Below, piece after piece: positions 31,264 through 44,802 of a stretch of DNA of 64,000 bases (within the stretch, counting starts at the first letter, position 1; the number at the start of each line of letters is the position of its first letter). The stretch spans positions 5,642,001 through 5,706,000 of the forward strand of contig NZ_CP150276.1 in assembly GCF_037977235.1 (NCBI RefSeq), written 5' to 3'. The notes under the pieces were generated by a model that was not told the origin of the DNA, ran no database searches, and saw only the letters and a program-made list of their open reading frames with translations. Position numbers and translations under genes: made by a program. The stretch is from Paenibacillus sp. FSL K6-0276. Its GTDB lineage: Bacteria; Bacillota; Bacilli; Paenibacillales; Paenibacillaceae.

Positions 31264-32079
31264 TTATCCCAACAACTTAAGAACTGATTGTGGTGCAGAG
31301 TTAGCTTGTGCCAACATTGCAGTACCTGCTTGAACCAAAATTTGATTCTTCGTGAATGCTGTCATTTCAGTAGCCATGTCAGCATCCTTAATACGGGAGT
31401 TAGCAGCTGACAAGTTCTCAGAAGTTACACCCAAGCTGTTGATCGTGTGTTCTAAACGGTTTTGGTACGCACCAAGCTGAGCACGGTTAGTCGACACTGA
31501 ATCAATTGCTGCTGCAATAGCAGACATTGCTGCTTTAGCAGAAGTAACATTTGTTACAGAAATCTTATCAATTTTCAATGCAGTAGTACCATTCTTAGAC
31601 AAATTCACTTTAAGAGTCTCTGTCTTAGAAACACCAATCTGGAAATCAACTGTACCTGTAGTGTTCAACAAGTTCACACCGTTAAACTTGGAGTTATCAG
31701 TTACACGTCCGATTTCAGTAAGCAGTTGTGTTACTTCCAGTTGAAGTTTCTGGCGGTCTGCAGTTACATACGTACCATTCGCTGATTGGTTAGCGAGTGT
31801 GTTCATACGTTGCAGCATGGAGTGAACTTCGGTCAGGTCACCTTCAGCGGTTTGAAGGAAGGAAATACCATCTTGTGCGTTACGTTGCGCTTGATTCAAA
31901 CCATTGATTTGGTAAGTCATTTTCTCAGAAATAGCCAAACCAGCAGCATCGTCAGCCGCACGGTTGATACGGTAACCAGAAGACAATTTTTCCATTGTCT
32001 TACCCATTTGTGTATTATTGAAGCTCAGGTTACGGTTAGCGTTAATTGCACCAACGTTTGTATTAATAAACATTCCCAT
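31264..32079 (-). CDS. hag: Flagellin (copy 1, promoter-distal of the array)
   Basis: 271 residues, a short flagellin with only D0/D1 domains. Residues 1-105 (from MGMFINTNVGA) are identical in all three copies, as is most of the region from about 194 to the end; the middle (about 106-193) differs most (e.g. NLSKNGTTALKIDKISVTNV). It ends SAPQSVLKLLG, where the other two have SAPQAVLKLLG. Flagellin is exported by the flagellar type III apparatus with FliS as chaperone. It has its own sigma-D promoter, a CsrA-site leader and a terminator. Confidence 0.97.
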   Translation of the reverse strand: MGMFINTNVGAINANRNLSFNNTQMGKTMEKLSSGYRINRAADDAAGLAISEKMTYQINGLNQAQRNAQDGISFLQTAEGDLTEVHSMLQRMNTLANQSANGTYVTADRQKLQLEVTQLLTEIGRVTDNSKFNGVNLLNTTGTVDFQIGVSKTETLKVNLSKNGTTALKIDKISVTNVTSAKAAMSAIAAAIDSVSTNRAQLGAYQNRLEHTINSLGVTSENLSAANSRIKDADMATEMTAFTKNQILVQAGTAMLAQANSAPQSVLKLLG

Positions 32080-32084
32080 TTGAA

Positions 32085-32124
32085 ATCATCCTCCATGATT
32101 GGTTATTAGCCACGTCCTTGTGGC
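32085..32124 (-). promoter_or_regulatory. Flagellin 1 leader: two CsrA-type GGA hairpins
   Basis: BS1-like hairpin GCCACAAGGACGTGGC (32109-32124) shows GGA in the loop and fits the CsrA consensus ACARGGAUGU except one base. BS2-like hairpin ATCAT-GGAGG-ATGAT (32085-32099) holds the Shine-Dalgarno in its loop, five bases before the ATG. Confidence 0.75.
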
Positions 32125-32133
32125 CTATTGTAT

Positions 32134-32160
32134 ATATCGGTCAATTCATTATTTTTTTTA
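32134..32160 (-). promoter_or_regulatory. Sigma-D promoter of flagellin 1
   Basis: Minus-strand TAAA (32157-32160), 15 bases, ACCGATAT (32134-32141); the sigma-D consensus is TAAA-N15-GCCGATAT. Confidence 0.85.
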
Positions 32161-32245
32161 GTCTTTTTTAATATTTTTCTAGAGGAAATAGAACTATTTT
32201 TCCATTCTAGTTAAAGTGATATCTGTATAGAATCTTTTTAAAACC

Positions 32246-32278
32246 AAAAAAATAAGCCTCCAGACTCAGGAGGCTTAT
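32246..32278 (-). terminator. Terminator of flagellin gene 2
   Basis: ATAAGCCTCC/GGAGGCTTAT with T7 on the minus strand; nearly identical to the other flagellin terminators. Confidence 0.85.
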
Positions 32279-32298
32279 CGTACAAACTTTCGGTAATA

Positions 32299-33114
32299 TT
32301 ATCCCAACAGTTTAAGAACAGCTTGTGGTGCAGAGTTAGCTTGAGCCAACATTGCAGTACCCGCTTGAACCAAGATTTGGTTCTTCGTGAATGCTGTCAT
32401 TTCAGTTGCCATGTCAGCATCTTTGATACGGGAATTAGCAGCCGACAAGTTCTCGGAAGTCACGCCCAAGCTATTGATAGTGTGTTCCAAACGGTTTTGG
32501 TACGCACCAAGTTGAGCACGGTTAGTCGATACTGTGTCAATTGCCGCTGCAATTGCAGACATTGCATCTTTAGCACCGGTAACACTAGATACAGAAATAG
32601 CACTTACTTTCAAACTGGTTACGCCGTTATTAGACAATTTTACAGTAAGAGTCTCTGTCTTAGAAACACCAATCTGGAAATCAACAGCAGCCGTAGTGTT
32701 CAACAAGTTCACACCGTTAAACTTGGAGTTGTCAGTTACACGTTTGATTTCGCCAAGAAGTTGTGTTACTTCCAGTTGAAGCTTATCACGGTCTGCGGCT
32801 ACATACGTACCATTCGCAGATTGGTTAGCGAGTGTGTTCATACGTTGCAGCATGGAGTGTACTTCTGTCAAGTCACCTTCAGCTGTTTGCAAGAAGGAAA
32901 TACCATCTTGTGCGTTACGTTGCGCTTGGTTCAAACCATTGATTTGGTAAGTCATTTTCTCAGAAATAGCCAAACCAGCAGCATCGTCAGCAGCGCGGTT
33001 AATGCGGTAACCGGAAGACAACTTTTCCATTGTCTTACCCATTTGTGTATTGTTGAAGCTCAGGTTACGGTTAGCGTTAATTGCACCCACGTTAGTGTTA
33101 ATAAACATACCCAT
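32299..33114 (-). CDS. hag: Flagellin (copy 2, middle of the array)
   Basis: 271 residues. The termini match copies 1 and 3; the variable centre (about 106-193) has VAADRDKLQLEV, LGEIKRVTDN and SAISVSSVTGAKD. It is closer to copy 3 than to copy 1 in this part. The leader is identical to that of copy 1 over about 60 bases, including both GGA hairpins, which points to recent duplication or gene conversion. The symbol marks homology to B. subtilis hag; which copy is the functional equivalent cannot be told. Confidence 0.97.
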   Translation of the reverse strand: MGMFINTNVGAINANRNLSFNNTQMGKTMEKLSSGYRINRAADDAAGLAISEKMTYQINGLNQAQRNAQDGISFLQTAEGDLTEVHSMLQRMNTLANQSANGTYVAADRDKLQLEVTQLLGEIKRVTDNSKFNGVNLLNTTAAVDFQIGVSKTETLTVKLSNNGVTSLKVSAISVSSVTGAKDAMSAIAAAIDTVSTNRAQLGAYQNRLEHTINSLGVTSENLSAANSRIKDADMATEMTAFTKNQILVQAGTAMLAQANSAPQAVLKLLG

Positions 33115-33119
33115 TTGAA

Positions 33120-33159
33120 ATCATCCTCCATGATTGGTTATTAGCCACGTCCTTGTGGC
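33120..33159 (-). promoter_or_regulatory. Flagellin 2 leader: two CsrA-type GGA hairpins
   Basis: Same pair as in copy 1: stem-loop with AAGGAC at 33144-33159 and Shine-Dalgarno hairpin at 33120-33134, both unchanged. Confidence 0.75.
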
Positions 33160-33168
33160 CTATTGTAT

Positions 33169-33195
33169 ATATCGGTGAATTCATTATTTTGTTTA
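33169..33195 (-). promoter_or_regulatory. Sigma-D promoter of flagellin 2
   Basis: Minus-strand TAAA (33192-33195), 15 bases, ACCGATAT (33169-33176). Confidence 0.85.
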
Positions 33196-33223
33196 GTTTT
33201 TCTAATTAGAATCTATTTGAAAC

Positions 33224-33256
33224 AAAAAAATAAGCCCCCAGACTCAGGAGGCTTAT
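33224..33256 (-). terminator. Terminator of flagellin gene 3
   Basis: AATAAGCCTCC paired with GGGGGCTTATT (one G-U pair) with T7 on the minus strand. Confidence 0.85.
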
Positions 33257-33276
33257 TGAACAAATTTTCGAGAGTA

Positions 33277-34092
33277 TTATCCCAACAGCTTAAGAACTGC
33301 TTGTGGTGCGGAGTTAGCTTGTGCCAACATTGCAGTACCCGCTTGAACCAAGATTTGATTCTTCGTAAATGCTGTCATTTCTGTTGCCATGTCAGCATCC
33401 TTGATACGGGAGTTAGCAGCCGACAAGTTCTCGGAAGTTACACCCAAGCTGTTGATCGTGTGTTCCAAACGGTTTTGGTACGCACCAAGCTGCGCACGGT
33501 TAGTCGATACTGTATCAATTGCCCCTGCAATAGCAGACATTGCAAGTTTAGCACCCGCAACACTAGATACAGAAATACCGCTTACATTCAAACTCTTCAC
33601 ACCGTTATTAGACAACTTTACAGTAAGAGTTTCCGCTTTAGAAACACCAATCTGGAAATCAACAGTAGCTGCAGTATTCAACAAATTCACACCGTTAAAC
33701 TTGGAGTTATCAGTTACACGTCCAATTTCAGTAAGCAGTTGTGAAACTTCTAGTTGAAGCTTCTTACGATCTTCAGTTACATACGTACCATTCGCAGATT
33801 GGTTAGCAAGTGTGTTCATACGTTGTAGCATGGAGTGAACTTCTGTCAAGTCACCTTCAGCGGTTTGCAAGAAGGAAATACCATCTTGAGCGTTACGTTG
33901 TGCTTGGTTCAAACCATTGATTTGGTAAGTCATTTTCTCGGAAATAGCCAAACCAGCAGCATCGTCAGCAGCACGGTTGATACGGTAGCCGGAAGACAAT
34001 TTTTCCATTGTCTTACCCATTTGCGTATTGTTGAAGCTCAGGTTACGGTTAGCGTTAATTGCGCCAACGTTAGTGTTAATAAACATACCCAT
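33277..34092 (-). CDS. hag: Flagellin (copy 3, nearest fliT/fliS)
   Basis: 271 residues with the same conserved termini. The centre reads VTEDRKKLQLEVSQ, VSKAETLTVKL and SGISVSSVAGAKL. Its promoter is the only one of the three with the exact GCCGATAT -10, so it may be the strongest; this is inference. Serines and threonines are concentrated in the variable centre of all copies and are the likely acceptors for glycosylation. The gene lies downstream of fliD-fliS-fliT, a common Bacillales arrangement. Confidence 0.97.
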   Translation of the reverse strand: MGMFINTNVGAINANRNLSFNNTQMGKTMEKLSSGYRINRAADDAAGLAISEKMTYQINGLNQAQRNAQDGISFLQTAEGDLTEVHSMLQRMNTLANQSANGTYVTEDRKKLQLEVSQLLTEIGRVTDNSKFNGVNLLNTAATVDFQIGVSKAETLTVKLSNNGVKSLNVSGISVSSVAGAKLAMSAIAGAIDTVSTNRAQLGAYQNRLEHTINSLGVTSENLSAANSRIKDADMATEMTAFTKNQILVQAGTAMLAQANSAPQAVLKLLG

Positions 34093-41013: not shown

Positions 41014-41301
41014 CTAATTTCCCTGAAACTCTTTGAAATACGGTAACAACTTCTCAGCAAGATCTTTTGCATCAACTTGATAGGTTCCTGCAGAAAACTG
41101 TTGCTTCAAATTTTCGATCTTGAGTGCACGCTCAACGTCAGTCTTGCCAGTGTTCTGTGCTTGTAAGAGTTGAATTGCTTCATCAGAAATCGAGACTTCA
41201 TCCTTACGTGAACTTTTCTTCATTAGTTCCTGCCTTTGCGCATCCGCGCTGCGTTGATACGGATTAATCGCGTTAATTCGTCCGGTCTCGTTAATTTTCA
41301 T
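41014..41301 (-). CDS. flgM: Anti-sigma-D factor FlgM
   Basis: 95 residues from the ATG at 41301. MKINETGRINAINPYQR is the usual FlgM N-terminus; the C-terminal sigma-binding region is VERALKIENLKQQFSAGTYQVDAKDLAEKLLPYF. FlgM holds sigma-D (FliA) inactive until the hook is complete, then loses its hold on it. It controls the flagellin and probably the glycosylation promoters of this window. Its own promoter and a terminator lie just upstream and overlap. Confidence 0.95.
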   Translation of the reverse strand: MKINETGRINAINPYQRSADAQRQELMKKSSRKDEVSISDEAIQLLQAQNTGKTDVERALKIENLKQQFSAGTYQVDAKDLAEKLLPYFKEFQGN

Positions 41302-41324
41302 AACTTCCACCTACTTTCTAATAT

Positions 41325-41358
41325 AAAAAAGCCGATAATCTTTACTAAGTTTATCGGC
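41325..41358 (-). terminator. Terminator directly upstream of flgM
   Basis: GCCGATAA (41351-41358 on the minus strand) pairs with TTATCGGC (41331-41338) and is followed by T6 (41325-41330). Only about 20 bases separate it from the flgM start. The first arm is also the -10 of the flgM sigma-D promoter. Confidence 0.8.
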
Positions 41359-41378
41359 GTAGATTGAATCATTCTTTA
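41351..41378 (-). promoter_or_regulatory. Sigma-D promoter of flgM
   Basis: Minus-strand TAAA (41375-41378), 16 bases, GCCGATAA (41351-41358), one base longer in the spacer and one mismatch from consensus. Transcription would begin within the hairpin loop of the overlapping terminator. Confidence 0.65.
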
Positions 41379-41404
41379 TAGCTGCAAATGTTATTTCGCA
41401 GATT

Positions 41405-41815
41405 TTATAGGCCACGCAGCTTATCTATGGCGCGATATGCGCCTTCTGTTGTCTTTTTGGTAGTATCCACATCAGCACTTTCCTTGGCAGCATTGGTGAG
41501 ATCCTTCCTGAGCCGACTACGGCAGCTTTCACACATATGCCCATCACGAATCAGCGTTCCACACACCTCGCAGGGATACATCATATTAGGTGCATTAGCT
41601 ATAGATATCCGGCCTTCTCGAATAAAGCGGGTTATTTCCTTAATAGAAATCTCCGTAGCATCGGACAGCTCTTGAATGTTGGTTCCTTTGTTCTCCCGCA
41701 AATAATCCACGCAGATCTCATATTCATGCTCCAGCTCTTTGATGCAGGGCTGGCACAACCCCATAAGATTCTTAACAAACAACCGGCCGCACCTTGGACA
41801 ATTGTCTAGATTCAT
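41405..41815 (-). CDS. YvyF/TIGR03826-family flagellar-operon protein with two zinc-binding sites
   Basis: 136 residues from the ATG at 41815 (MNLDNCPRCG). Two cysteine clusters are visible: CPRCGRLF...CQPC near the N-terminus and CEVCGTLI...CESC in the second half. Between them is a helix-turn-helix-like stretch (IQELSDATEISIKEITRFIREGRI) resembling MerR/DNA-binding helices. Members occur between comF and flgM in Bacillales; in B. subtilis the gene is yvyF. It may be a regulator, but the role is unproven. Confidence 0.85.
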   Translation of the reverse strand: MNLDNCPRCGRLFVKNLMGLCQPCIKELEHEYEICVDYLRENKGTNIQELSDATEISIKEITRFIREGRISIANAPNMMYPCEVCGTLIRDGHMCESCRSRLRKDLTNAAKESADVDTTKKTTEGAYRAIDKLRGL

Positions 41816-41983
41816 AACAAGCAGCCGCTCCTCTCCGTACATTCTGTACAATGCATAATATTCTTATGCTCCTAGATTACATGATTGCAGAGAATTCGTC
41901 TATGGGACGGGAGAAACGCTATTAAGCGCATGAATCTCTTCAAAAAATGAATTGGCTGTTCACAATCATGCATTTCGCTCCCC

Positions 41984-42802
41984 TTAGGAACGTGCCCAAG
42001 TTAAGCTATAGACCTCTACCGCATATCCATAATCTGAAACCATTTGTTTAATAATCGCAGCGCACGCACGAATAGTACTGCCCGTTGTATAAATATCATC
42101 AATAATAACAATCTGAAGAGGACGATTTAGAGGTACTTTCCTTTTCAGCCAATTCGCAAATTGTGTTGTTACTGCCGGATTCTCTGAAAAAGCATGCTTC
42201 ATATCCGCTAGTCGTTCTGCCCGACTCTTAAAGCTCTGTTTTCCTGTATGGTGTGTGCGGATCAGTAGCGGAAGCTGTGGAACCTTCCTACGTCTAGACA
42301 GTACATCAGCCAATCTTTCCGCTTGATTAAATCCTCGCTCCATAAGCCGAGAATCACTAACAGGCACTGGCACTAACAAATCAGCAGACCAAGAGCGATG
42401 AATTATGGATGGTTTCCGGGATAAAATAGCACTCTGATTCTCTTTTTTCAGAGTTAAATAAGCACTATCTAGCATGAGACCAAGTAAAAGGGCATATCGT
42501 TCATTTCCGCGATATTTATACTGACCCAGCCATTCCCGCATAACACTAGTGTAGGCTACTGCACTCCGGTTGCACACAATCGGTGAGGGTTCACTATTGC
42601 GGGTACAGTCAGGACAACCCACATGCCGGCCACATTTCAGGCAACGAGGGAAACGTATCCAAGGAATGGATTCTACGCAAATCCTGCAAACTCCAGGAAA
42701 TTGTGAGGATCCAGGGTTACGTTTTCCGCAGGTTAAGCATGGAGTTACAGAGGGGGACAAGAGGGACTGAAATTTACTTAACCATGAGAACATAGCGTTC
42801 AT
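41984..42802 (-). CDS. comFC: Competence protein ComFC (phosphoribosyltransferase-like)
   Basis: 272 residues. The N-terminal zinc ribbon has CLTCGKRN, CRIC and CLKCGRHVGCPDC; the C-terminal PRTase domain has the PRPP-binding loop VIIDDIYTTGSTIRACAAI. LLVPVPVSDSRLMERGFNQAERLA is the ComF/GntX signature. It is needed for efficient transformation. ATG at 42802, eight bases after AAGGAG, with a 4-bp overlap with comFA. Confidence 0.93.
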   Translation of the reverse strand: MNAMFSWLSKFQSLLSPSVTPCLTCGKRNPGSSQFPGVCRICVESIPWIRFPRCLKCGRHVGCPDCTRNSEPSPIVCNRSAVAYTSVMREWLGQYKYRGNERYALLLGLMLDSAYLTLKKENQSAILSRKPSIIHRSWSADLLVPVPVSDSRLMERGFNQAERLADVLSRRRKVPQLPLLIRTHHTGKQSFKSRAERLADMKHAFSENPAVTTQFANWLKRKVPLNRPLQIVIIDDIYTTGSTIRACAAIIKQMVSDYGYAVEVYSLTWARS

Positions 42803-44802
42803 CTCAGCGTCTCCTTGCTAATATATCCTTTACGACGAGCGATAATGTTCATAGTACGGATTTGCGAGATGGCTCCACGCTGAGACCGGGTCCACTGGGG
42901 AGAGGCAAATACTACACGCCCAGCAGGATCGTTTTTAGATCGCCCGGCACGCCCCGCCATCTGAACCAATGAAGCTTCGTCAAAAAGATCGCTGTCCGCA
43001 TCCAAAATAAATACATCGCTGCGTGGCACTGTAACTCCTCGTTCCAGAATCGTAGTAGTTACTAATAGGGAGATAACGCGGCTGCGGAAAGCGGTTACCT
43101 TCTCAGCTCGGAAGGGATCTTTGGAGGAAGTACCATCAATAACTACGCCGGGAAAGTTCCGACGAAGCAGAACCAGTAATCCTTCAATATGTGCAATACG
43201 AGACACAAAGCAAAAGATTTGTGCCTCTCGCTCGATCGACTTACGAAGCGTATGTATGAGCGGTCTCGGTAAATTCCCACGCTTCAGGCATGTTTGAATG
43301 GATGTCATGGTCAGATGCTGCGGCACAGGCAAGGGATGACCATGGAAGCGGACAGGCACTCTGGCATGTGGAAGTCTGCCTGAGCGGACTAACCGCTGCA
43401 TTTCTTGCGGTGGTGTGGCTGATAAGTAGATAAAAGAACCATCTAGCTTGCAGGCTTGTTCTGCGGCATAAGCCAGCATAGGATCATTATGGTAGGGGTA
43501 CGCATCCAACTCGTCAATGATTACGAGATCAAAACCTCTATGGAAGCGCAGCAGCTGATGGGTGGTCGCGAGCGTTAAGCGACCACTCCCCCAGCGTTCT
43601 GCGCTGCCGCCGTAAAGCACGGCGAGAATCTCCGCCGGGAAAGCCCGGGCGAGCCGCGGCGCGAGCTCGAGTACGACGTCGCGTCGCGGCGTCGCTACGA
43701 GCGCCCGCCCACCGGCGGCGAGCACGGCCTCTAGGAGCGGGAAGATCATCTCGGTCTTCCCGGCTCCCGTCACCGCCCAGAGCAGGAACCGCTCTGGGCA
43801 CGGTTTGGCGGAGCGCTCACGCCGCTCCGCCAGAAAACCCAGCGCAGCGCCAGCGGCACCCGCCTGCGCTGGGCTTAACCCCCACCGGCCTGCGGCCGCG
43901 GTGGGGTCAAGGGCGGCCGTGCACCGTACGGCCGGAAGCGCTGCGCTGCGTAGCAGCAGCGCACAAGCCCGGCTGCGCCCGAGTGCGAGGCAGGCCTCGC
44001 AATAGGCGCAGCCCATAAGGCCGCACGCGGCGCATGCCGTGCGGCCGGTCGGTGCGCTGCCGCAGCGCAGGCAGCGCACAACGGCGCGGCGGGCGACAGC
44101 GCCGCGCCACAACACGTGCGGCAACTTAGCCGCCGCACGCGCCAGAGCGCCAGCACCCGCAGGGAGCTGGCGGGCCCGCGCACCGTGCGCAGCCGGGGCG
44201 GGACTGCCCACGGCGGCTGTCAGCTGCAGCCGCCCTTGCAGATGCGCCAGTTGTGCCGCCTGGCGCCAACGGCCTGTCTGCTTTGGCAATCCTTCTGCCA
44301 GCAGCGCCTCTATCTCCGGCTGCAGTAAAGAGCGGCCAGCCACCGCATGTACGAATTGTTCTACCTCCGATTCAAGCAAAGCATAATCGAGATCATTTCC
44401 TCTGCAATCATTGTTCTTCTTAGCCTGTTCTATCTCCCAACCTGGATCAGCAAACCACCATAGCGAAATCCCATCACTAAGCCACTGTTCCTCCTCCCCC
44501 ATTCCTCCTGCTTCCCTCTCCTCCTTCAACTCAGGCTCAAGAACACTGCTCACGTATTCTCCCCACTCCTTAGCCCCCCAGTTCCTCATTCCGTCTCTTT
44601 GTTTAAAACGATCGCGCAACTTCACCGCCCACCCCAGCGATAGCGCAGGAGATAGTAAGACCAGCTTGTCCACTGTTACTAAGCGCCTATCTTGGCTCTC
44701 TGGTCCAGCTCCAGACCACCACCATCTATCTACCGAAAGATCTAAAGAAATCCAAACACTCCAGATACCCTTACATTCCAAAGCATATACAGCAACTCGC
44801 AT
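42799..44802 (-). CDS. comFA: Competence ATPase/helicase ComFA
   Basis: 667 residues, about 200 longer than B. subtilis ComFA because of an N-terminal extension. A zinc finger spans about 241-280 (CLRCGSA, CAACGLMGCAYCEAC). Walker A VTGAGKTEM is at about 342-350, the DEAD-type box IIDELDAYPY at about 425-434, and helicase motif VI QMAGRAGRS near 613-621. It is a DNA-dependent ATPase thought to pull single-stranded DNA into the cell through ComEC. From about 43550 to 44330 the base composition becomes extremely GC-rich and the protein Ala/Arg-rich, unlike the flanks, yet the motifs stay intact. Confidence 0.93.
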   Translation of the reverse strand: MRVAVYALECKGIWSVWISLDLSVDRWWWSGAGPESQDRRLVTVDKLVLLSPALSLGWAVKLRDRFKQRDGMRNWGAKEWGEYVSSVLEPELKEEREAGGMGEEEQWLSDGISLWWFADPGWEIEQAKKNNDCRGNDLDYALLESEVEQFVHAVAGRSLLQPEIEALLAEGLPKQTGRWRQAAQLAHLQGRLQLTAAVGSPAPAAHGARARQLPAGAGALARAAAKLPHVLWRGAVARRAVVRCLRCGSAPTGRTACAACGLMGCAYCEACLALGRSRACALLLRSAALPAVRCTAALDPTAAAGRWGLSPAQAGAAGAALGFLAERRERSAKPCPERFLLWAVTGAGKTEMIFPLLEAVLAAGGRALVATPRRDVVLELAPRLARAFPAEILAVLYGGSAERWGSGRLTLATTHQLLRFHRGFDLVIIDELDAYPYHNDPMLAYAAEQACKLDGSFIYLSATPPQEMQRLVRSGRLPHARVPVRFHGHPLPVPQHLTMTSIQTCLKRGNLPRPLIHTLRKSIEREAQIFCFVSRIAHIEGLLVLLRRNFPGVVIDGTSSKDPFRAEKVTAFRSRVISLLVTTTILERGVTVPRSDVFILDADSDLFDEASLVQMAGRAGRSKNDPAGRVVFASPQWTRSQRGAISQIRTMNIIARRKGYISKETLR
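43550..44330. other. GC-rich island inside comFA
   Basis: About 780 bp in which third codon positions are nearly all G or C, bounded on both sides by ordinary AT-leaning sequence of the same gene. The comFA frame runs through without a stop. Confidence 0.8.

Follow-up and report, generated by a model that had tools for sequence, protein, structure and literature searches.

Gene context of flgM

The window analysed here is a stretch of 64,000 nucleotides from Paenibacillus sp. FSL K6-0276 (contig NZ_CP150276.1, positions 5,642,001 to 5,706,000), and all positions below are counted within it. Its minus strand carries, in this order, comFA-like, comFC-like and yvyF-like genes, flgM, flgN, flgK and a gene with a flagellin domain. 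The four genes around the element described below are:

42799..44802, minus strand: comFA-like helicase gene, co-directional upstream (Pfam Helicase_C, DEAD and ResIII)
41984..42802, minus strand: comFC-like gene, co-directional upstream (no Pfam match at 0.001)
41405..41851, minus strand: yvyF-like zinc-ribbon gene, directly upstream of flgM (Pfam DZR_2, 27.5 bits, cut-off 27)
41014..41301, minus strand: flgM, anti-sigma-D factor (Pfam PF04316, 51.5 bits)

FlgM, FlgN and FlgK all passed their Pfam cut-offs. We placed the start of flgM by eye, from conservation, at the ATG at 41299-41301, while the mechanical list of open reading frames begins it at a GTG three codons upstream. The gene at 41405..41851 is presumably yvyF, and we take those at 41984..42802 and 42799..44802 to be comFC and comFA; the flagellin-domain gene after flgK we assume to be flgL. 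The yvyF and flgL assignments fit the order of the Bacillus subtilis operon. The comF-yvyF-flgM order given for that operon in the available text of one report matches these com, yvyF and flgL names (PMC8849057). A yvyF-type gene, detected with an HMM built in this analysis, lies upstream of flgM in 237 of 245 loci, and in our window this gene is the presumed source of read-through into flgM.

Two further features of the window were observed. Within the comFA-like reading frame a GC-rich, alanine-rich stretch (43500-44400) reaches 76% GC, against about 40-52% around it, and carries many overlapping antisense reading frames. Three similar flagellin N-domain matches lie close together at 31654-34080.

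The -10 element of the flgM promoter forms one arm of a hairpin

The interval between yvyF and flgM reads, on the minus strand, CTATAAAGAATGATTCAATCTAC-GCCGATAA-ACTTAGTAAAGA-TTATCGGC-TTTTTT-ATATTAGAAAGTAGGTGGAAGTT-ATG, and contains the following features:

41375-41378, minus strand: -35 element TAAA of the sigma-D-type flgM promoter, assigned by sequence (CTATAAA or CTATTAA in most loci of the genus)
16 nt, minus strand: spacer between the -35 and -10 elements
41351-41358, minus strand: -10 element GCCGATAA, also the 5' arm of the terminator hairpin
41339-41350, minus strand: hairpin loop ACTTAGTAAAGA, 12 nt, with the predicted sigma-D start within it at about 41345
41331-41338, minus strand: hairpin 3' arm TTATCGGC, which covaries with the -10 element
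41325-41330, minus strand: T6 tract, following the hairpin without a gap
41307-41312, minus strand: flgM Shine-Dalgarno sequence AGGTGG, outside the hairpin, placed by eye

An initial sequence-only reading had proposed a promoter of the form TAAA-N16-GCCGATAA whose -10 element doubles as a hairpin arm, with T6 and the flgM ribosome site following, and every one of these parts is present on the minus strand, with promoter, hairpin and T6 at 41325-41378. The stem is a perfect 8 bp, lengthened by inner CTT/AAG pairs (CUU/AAG in the RNA) within the loop. The hairpin RNA folds at -12.9 kcal/mol (z -4.8), a value equalled by none of 200 shuffles. When 121 nt were folded, the best structure still contained the hairpin but was, taken whole, less unusual (z -2.1; equalled by 6 of 200 shuffles). 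Taking a stable hairpin followed directly by a T-tract as the criterion for an intrinsic terminator, the site qualifies (-12.7 to -12.9 kcal/mol, then T6). A consensus terminator scan, which allows a loop of at most 8, left the flgM hairpin unflagged, and an Rfam search of the region identified no known structured RNA family, its three matches (E 1.3 to 8.1) all lying far below gathering scores. The flgM hairpin is the sole match to GCCGATAW-N4-20-WTATCGGC in the 6.1-Mb genome, and the flgM element the sole match to TAAA-N15-18-CCGAT-N10-20-ATCGGNTT. Three places in this genome match a looser 7-bp inverted repeat, CCGATAW-N6-18-WTATCGG.

The B. subtilis sigma-D motif consists of TAAA, a spacer of 14-16 nt and a GCCGATA-type -10 element, all of which are met at flgM. 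The genome encodes one FliA/WhiG sigma factor above the cut-off (TIGR02479, 250 bits, cut-off 189.6). The motif TAAA-N14-16-GCCGATA is not enriched genome-wide, with 13 matches against 10 for a reversed control, and our assignment of the flgM promoter therefore rests on its place and conservation. The E. coli sigma-28 consensus, as given in the accessible part of one study, is TAAAGTTT-n11-GCCGATAA (PMC2859248).

Within the genus, the flgM promoter contains, in addition to its -35 and -10 elements, a conserved block, CAGCTATAAA-n-AATGTTTCAA (41360-41385 in the window), that extends into the spacer. It was not seen at the flagellin promoter of the source genome and is perhaps a regulator site. 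We also considered a leader peptide starting at an ATG in the spacer, the frame of which ends on the flgM start in this genome, and rejected it on account of early stops seen by eye in loci such as L004 and L021.

Conservation across Bacilli

The sequence-only reading had suggested a search for the same overlap upstream of flgM in related species. We scored the promoter by its -10 and -35 elements and required a hairpin that includes the CCGA of the -10 element, with an energy of -6 or below, followed by at least four T in the next 8 bases and at least three in the next 5. FlgM was found in 99 of 100 genomes of the genus, giving 98 loci with upstream DNA, and the overlap was present in 96 of these by the rule; both misses have it by eye, making 98. 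Among the matches listed, it was also present in 46 of 59 loci from other genera of the family and in 31 of 88 from other families of the class. These 31 fall in ten families (f2, f7, f10, f11, f12, f17, f19, f21, f34 and f35), or eleven counting Paenibacillaceae. The search was thus strongly positive. A further 80 loci (79 Paenibacillus, one Fontibacillus), many from genomes already counted, gave 76 with the overlap.

The 59 family loci came from a search of 295 genomes, 31 of them picked for spread over genera, and the class sample comprised 89 loci, 60 of them picked from the matches listed. Locus L010, whose contig begins inside flgM, was left out of all counts. L191, cut by a contig end, was a miss in the first scan by the rule; it has the overlap by eye and was left out of the class, arm-pair, T-tract and yvyF counts. 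The overlap is likewise visible by eye in L098, L141 and L160, which the rule missed, and in L270 it lies on the third-ranked promoter, which has a poor -35 element. When the DNA behind the -10 element was shuffled with dinucleotides preserved, such a terminator arose in 47 of 1450 shuffles, compared with 115 of the 145 distinct real sequences, which represent part of the loci.

None of 30 flagellin promoters of the genus carried the overlap, which rules it out as a common trait of flagellin promoters, the only other sigma-D promoters this comparison covers. Most of these 30 flagellin leaders (L202-L231) share GGGCGGCCGAC, or a sequence near it, about 30 nt behind the -10 element, and it may be a leader element. 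Outside the class, the overlap was found at none of the 30 best-scoring flgM loci from other classes of the phylum, although 23 of them have a promoter-like motif.

Several members of the family have lost the hairpin. The promoter is kept while the hairpin or T-tract fails in all three loci of genus g9 (two without both parts, one with a hairpin and no T-tract), in six of eleven loci of g8 (weak or no hairpin) and in three of four loci of g5 (two with a hairpin and no T-tract). The element is therefore dispensable. The decayed loci L116, L124, L125, L128, L129 and L132 (g8) and L148, L149 and L155 (g9) are natural contrasts to the intact ones. In locus L019 (genome G061) two such hairpins stand in tandem upstream of flgM; both carry ACCGATA in the first arm and each has a T-rich tail, which looks like a duplication of the element.

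Of 100 genomes of the genus, 77 contained a match to a strict pattern for the full layout, and apart from flgM some sites recur in a few genomes. We examined eight non-flgM sites, of which four lie behind the end of a permease-like reading frame, two behind another reading frame and two inside coding sequence. From these positions they look like ordinary gene-end terminators or chance matches, and we did not accept them as further cases. Two of them (L408 and L409) represent a near-identical site, CCATACAAAAACCCGATACTGGATCAGTATCGGGTT, found in genomes G006, G029, G040, G089 and G093; both lie behind the end of a long reading frame and are terminator-like. In four genomes (L404-L407) a hairpin of the form TAAA-n-GCCGATTCCGAAATA-n-ATCGGCTT lies between a permease-like reading frame and the next co-directional one; this may be another instance of the layout, or a terminator of the usual kind.

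The hairpin arms covary and the T-tract accompanies the hairpin

If the hairpin acts as a terminator, its pairing should be conserved by compensating changes. In relatives the -10 element and 5' arm also reads ACCGATAA, GCCGATGA, GCCGATTA, GCCGATAT or GCCGATAC, each with a matching 3' arm. The stems differ by family (GCCGATAA, GCCGATGATAC, GCCGATTACTT, GCCGATATTACAA and others) and the 3' arm tracks the -10 element, giving pairs such as GCCGATAA with TTATCGGC, ACCGATAA with TTATCGGT, GCCGATGATAC with GTATCATCGG, GCCGATTACTT with AAGTAGTCGGC and GTCGATAAG with TTATCGAC. Across 59 distinct arm pairs, 449 of 472 cells pair. We counted 34 two-sided changes, whereas 500 shuffles averaged 4.4 and reached 18 at most, and slid registers gave 0 to 13. 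The arms in this test were placed from predicted folds, which biases it in favour of pairing; the shuffled and slid controls were anchored in the same way. When 31 sequences were simply aligned, 15 two-sided changes were counted against 2.0 in shuffles, and none of 500 shuffles reached as high. The expectation of compensating change is thus met.

The T-tract was assessed separately, with hairpins scored regardless of T at an energy of -5 or below and a T-tract defined as five of nine bases. It was present in 168 of 175 loci with a hairpin but in only 8 of 61 without one. In some loci the U-tract is broken.

RNA from the predicted sigma-D start loses the hairpin

At the E. coli aer promoter, which depends on sigma-28, the mapped start lies 6 bp behind the -10 octamer, according to the available part of that report (PMC2859248). 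Transferring this distance to flgM would place its +1 at about 41345 (41343-41346), inside the loop; the start is thus an inference. An RNA that begins at 41345 and ends with the U-tract forms no stable structure (0 kcal/mol), compared with -12.7 kcal/mol for RNA that includes the first arm. The same loss is seen over 173 loci, where the mean fold is -0.6 from the predicted start and -12.2 with the first arm, and the sigma-D RNA is weaker than -3 in 160 of the 173.

The earlier proposal that sigma-D RNA begins in the loop, without the first arm, agrees with this geometry and with the fold loss, while the actual start remains only predicted. Its interpretation of the locus is supported, as both the geometry and the comparison between genomes fit. 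That flgM is limited to the sigma-D route appears likely, although in the absence of RNA data neither this nor the dependence on sigma-D has been shown. In the predicted sigma-D leader (41299-41345) the Shine-Dalgarno region can pair with the U-tract and with the second arm, which has lost its partner (-8.2 kcal/mol, z -2.6), and this pairing might damp flgM translation.

A probable insulator in front of flgM

We consider it probable that the locus carries an intrinsic terminator which uses the -10 element of the flgM sigma-D promoter as its 5' arm, and which so acts as a self-exempting insulator. Polymerase arriving from comF-yvyF would transcribe the whole hairpin and the U-tract and release its RNA ahead of the flgM ribosome site. 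Sigma-D polymerase would start in the loop, and because this leaves out the first arm its RNA could not form the terminator and would run on into flgM-flgN-flgK-flgL. With sigma-D transcripts spared and read-through stopped, FlgM, the inhibitor of sigma-D, would be made mainly while sigma-D is active, as negative feedback, rather than incidentally whenever the upstream genes are transcribed. Sequence and comparison establish the promoter motif, the hairpin and the T-tract, their joint conservation and covariation, and the absence of the fold from the predicted start. Actual termination, its efficiency, the start site, the dependence on sigma-D and this physiological purpose are inferred without RNA data. 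Termination may be partial, because the stem is short (8 bp, four of them G-C) and has a 12-nt outer loop.

Insulation does not itself require the overlap, because one placed ahead of the promoter, as a separate terminator, would do so equally well. It is therefore possible, though we think it the less likely case, that an ordinary operon-end terminator and an ordinary promoter have simply been packed together by compaction, so that the insulation is real and the overlap has no role of its own. The usual spacing would suit this reading, since the gap from hairpin to flgM has a median of 29 nt (162 loci) and yvyF ends a median of 52 nt before the -10 element (172 loci). However, the gap ranges from 20 to 404 nt and exceeds 100 nt in 17 of the 162 loci, and since the overlap is kept even at the widest of these it is not forced by lack of space. 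It is also kept across families with unrelated stems, where two independent elements should at some point have separated.

We also entertain, no more than tentatively, the existence of two designs by lineage, one in which ComK-driven read-through from comF into flgM is used and one in which, where ComK is absent, the terminator closes that route. In B. subtilis, as the accessible text of one study reports, read-through from comFA under the control of ComK increases FlgM and reduces motility (PMC4793158). No match to ComK (PF06338) was found in the source genome, nor in the 19 other genomes of the family shown. Among the class matches listed, the overlap was present in none of 31 loci with strong ComK, compared with 31 of 57 others (27 of 48 with no ComK match and 4 of 9 with a weak one; Fisher p 2e-8, uncorrected for kinship). 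Against this, 26 of the 57 loci without strong ComK also lack the overlap. Dividing loci without strong ComK by their upstream gene, the overlap was present in 30 of 50 with yvyF upstream, leaving 20 that lack it, and in one of seven without yvyF. A YvyF tree of 111 rows shows two changes of ComK and at least 13 of the terminator, and paired contrasts gave no support (p 1). In that tree the family rows were set to no ComK, not all having been searched, only a few rows per genus of the family were kept, and L098, L141, L160 and L270 were set to overlap present. ComK changes too seldom on the tree to provide an independent test, and we therefore keep the link to ComK as a rival only; it may be one historical split.

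A conditional attenuator seems unlikely. The hairpin would then be leaky or anti-terminated and let a set fraction of comF-yvyF transcription through as basal FlgM, which the short stem and the broken U-tract of some loci could accommodate. An extra block conserved in the genus, CTATAAA-AATGTTTCA, lies upstream of the hairpin and would be present in read-through RNA; but it sits in the -35 element and spacer, with a variable stretch before the hairpin, as in a promoter.

For the insulator, the point least explained is why promoter and terminator stay superimposed over such varied distances to flgM. Compaction is one option and evolutionary locking another, as a mutation in the first arm always alters the promoter too. 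The third, which we regard as improbable, is a polymerase relay. Polymerase would release its RNA at the T-tract but remain on the DNA, some 20-30 bp in front of the flgM -10 element, take up sigma-D where this is free and re-initiate at that element. Transcription from comF-yvyF would then feed flgM only when sigma-D is free, making read-through a sensor of unbound sigma-D, and this would explain why the two signals are kept superimposed. Diffusion and re-initiation after termination, raised by added sigma, have been described in vitro for E. coli polymerase, and in the portion of that report available its authors state that re-initiation after termination has not been observed in vivo (PMC6978380).

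That the inverted repeat is an operator for a flgM regulator and no terminator is very improbable, for although it is a near-perfect palindrome over the -10 element, conserved within the genus including its loop, the T-tract is tied to the hairpin and at the source locus lies on one side only, and a fixed DNA site would not explain stems that differ between families with pairing kept.

If the self-exempting insulator is correct, it constitutes a compact rule of insulation, a stop signal that includes the promoter as an arm and acts only on transcripts begun elsewhere. The gene it guards encodes an anti-sigma factor, stray expression of which would shut off motility. The layout occurs in 11 sampled families of Bacilli, none with strong ComK in our sample. 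This differs from B. subtilis, where read-through from comF to flgM is documented. The design could be reused in synthetic operons and can be tested directly and cheaply with reporters. It also holds a caution for genome annotation, in which promoters and terminators are generally predicted separately.

Comparison with known systems

The transposase genes of IS10 and IS50 provide a close parallel. There, RNA from outside promoters folds back and hides the ribosome site, while the gene's own start lies inside the inverted repeat. Only outside RNA has both arms there, as would hold at flgM with the start inside the repeat that its geometry predicts. At flgM, unlike in the transposase genes, the hairpin (41331-41358) ends before the Shine-Dalgarno sequence (41307-41312) and is followed by T6, which would place the block at transcription, and the gene is a chromosomal regulatory one. 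In phage T4 late genes such as e and soc, early and late transcripts differ in the first arm of a hairpin, so that the promoter used decides whether the RNA has this arm, as predicted at flgM. In T4 this controls translation and timing, whereas termination is predicted for flgM.

Insulation by upstream terminators is known as well. Type II-C CRISPR arrays are insulated by Rho-independent terminators (PMC12080349), and, as proposed for the flgM element, these are intrinsic terminators directly upstream that shield a unit from outside transcription. They differ in lying upstream of an array, and the available text of that report makes no mention of a promoter element as an arm. In front of the B. 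subtilis fla/che operon a terminator excludes outside transcription, and deletion of one arm raises expression of the operon (PMC4526659). It keeps upstream transcription out of a flagellar operon, as we propose for the flgM element; the point changes described in the accessible part of that study lie at -291 and -294 from the fla/che start, and the terminator is thus apart from the promoter, unlike at flgM. The B. subtilis comF-yvyF-flgM locus itself has the same gene order as ours, with sigma-D among its regulators, as far as the available text of two reports goes (PMC4793158, PMC8849057). It differs in that comFA read-through reaches flgM under ComK (PMC4793158), and in our class sample, which does not include B. 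subtilis itself, none of the loci with strong ComK had the overlap.

We found no description of a sigma-D -10 element as a terminator arm, or of such an element at flgM, in the open-access papers listed by our searches, several of which covered only the top-ranked matches, with subscription journals mostly outside their scope. A search there for a promoter inside a terminator likewise returned nothing, and related topics gave loosely related work only. The logic of a promoter within a hairpin and the use of upstream terminators as insulators are thus already known, and what is apparently new is the use of the sigma-D -10 element as a terminator arm at flgM.
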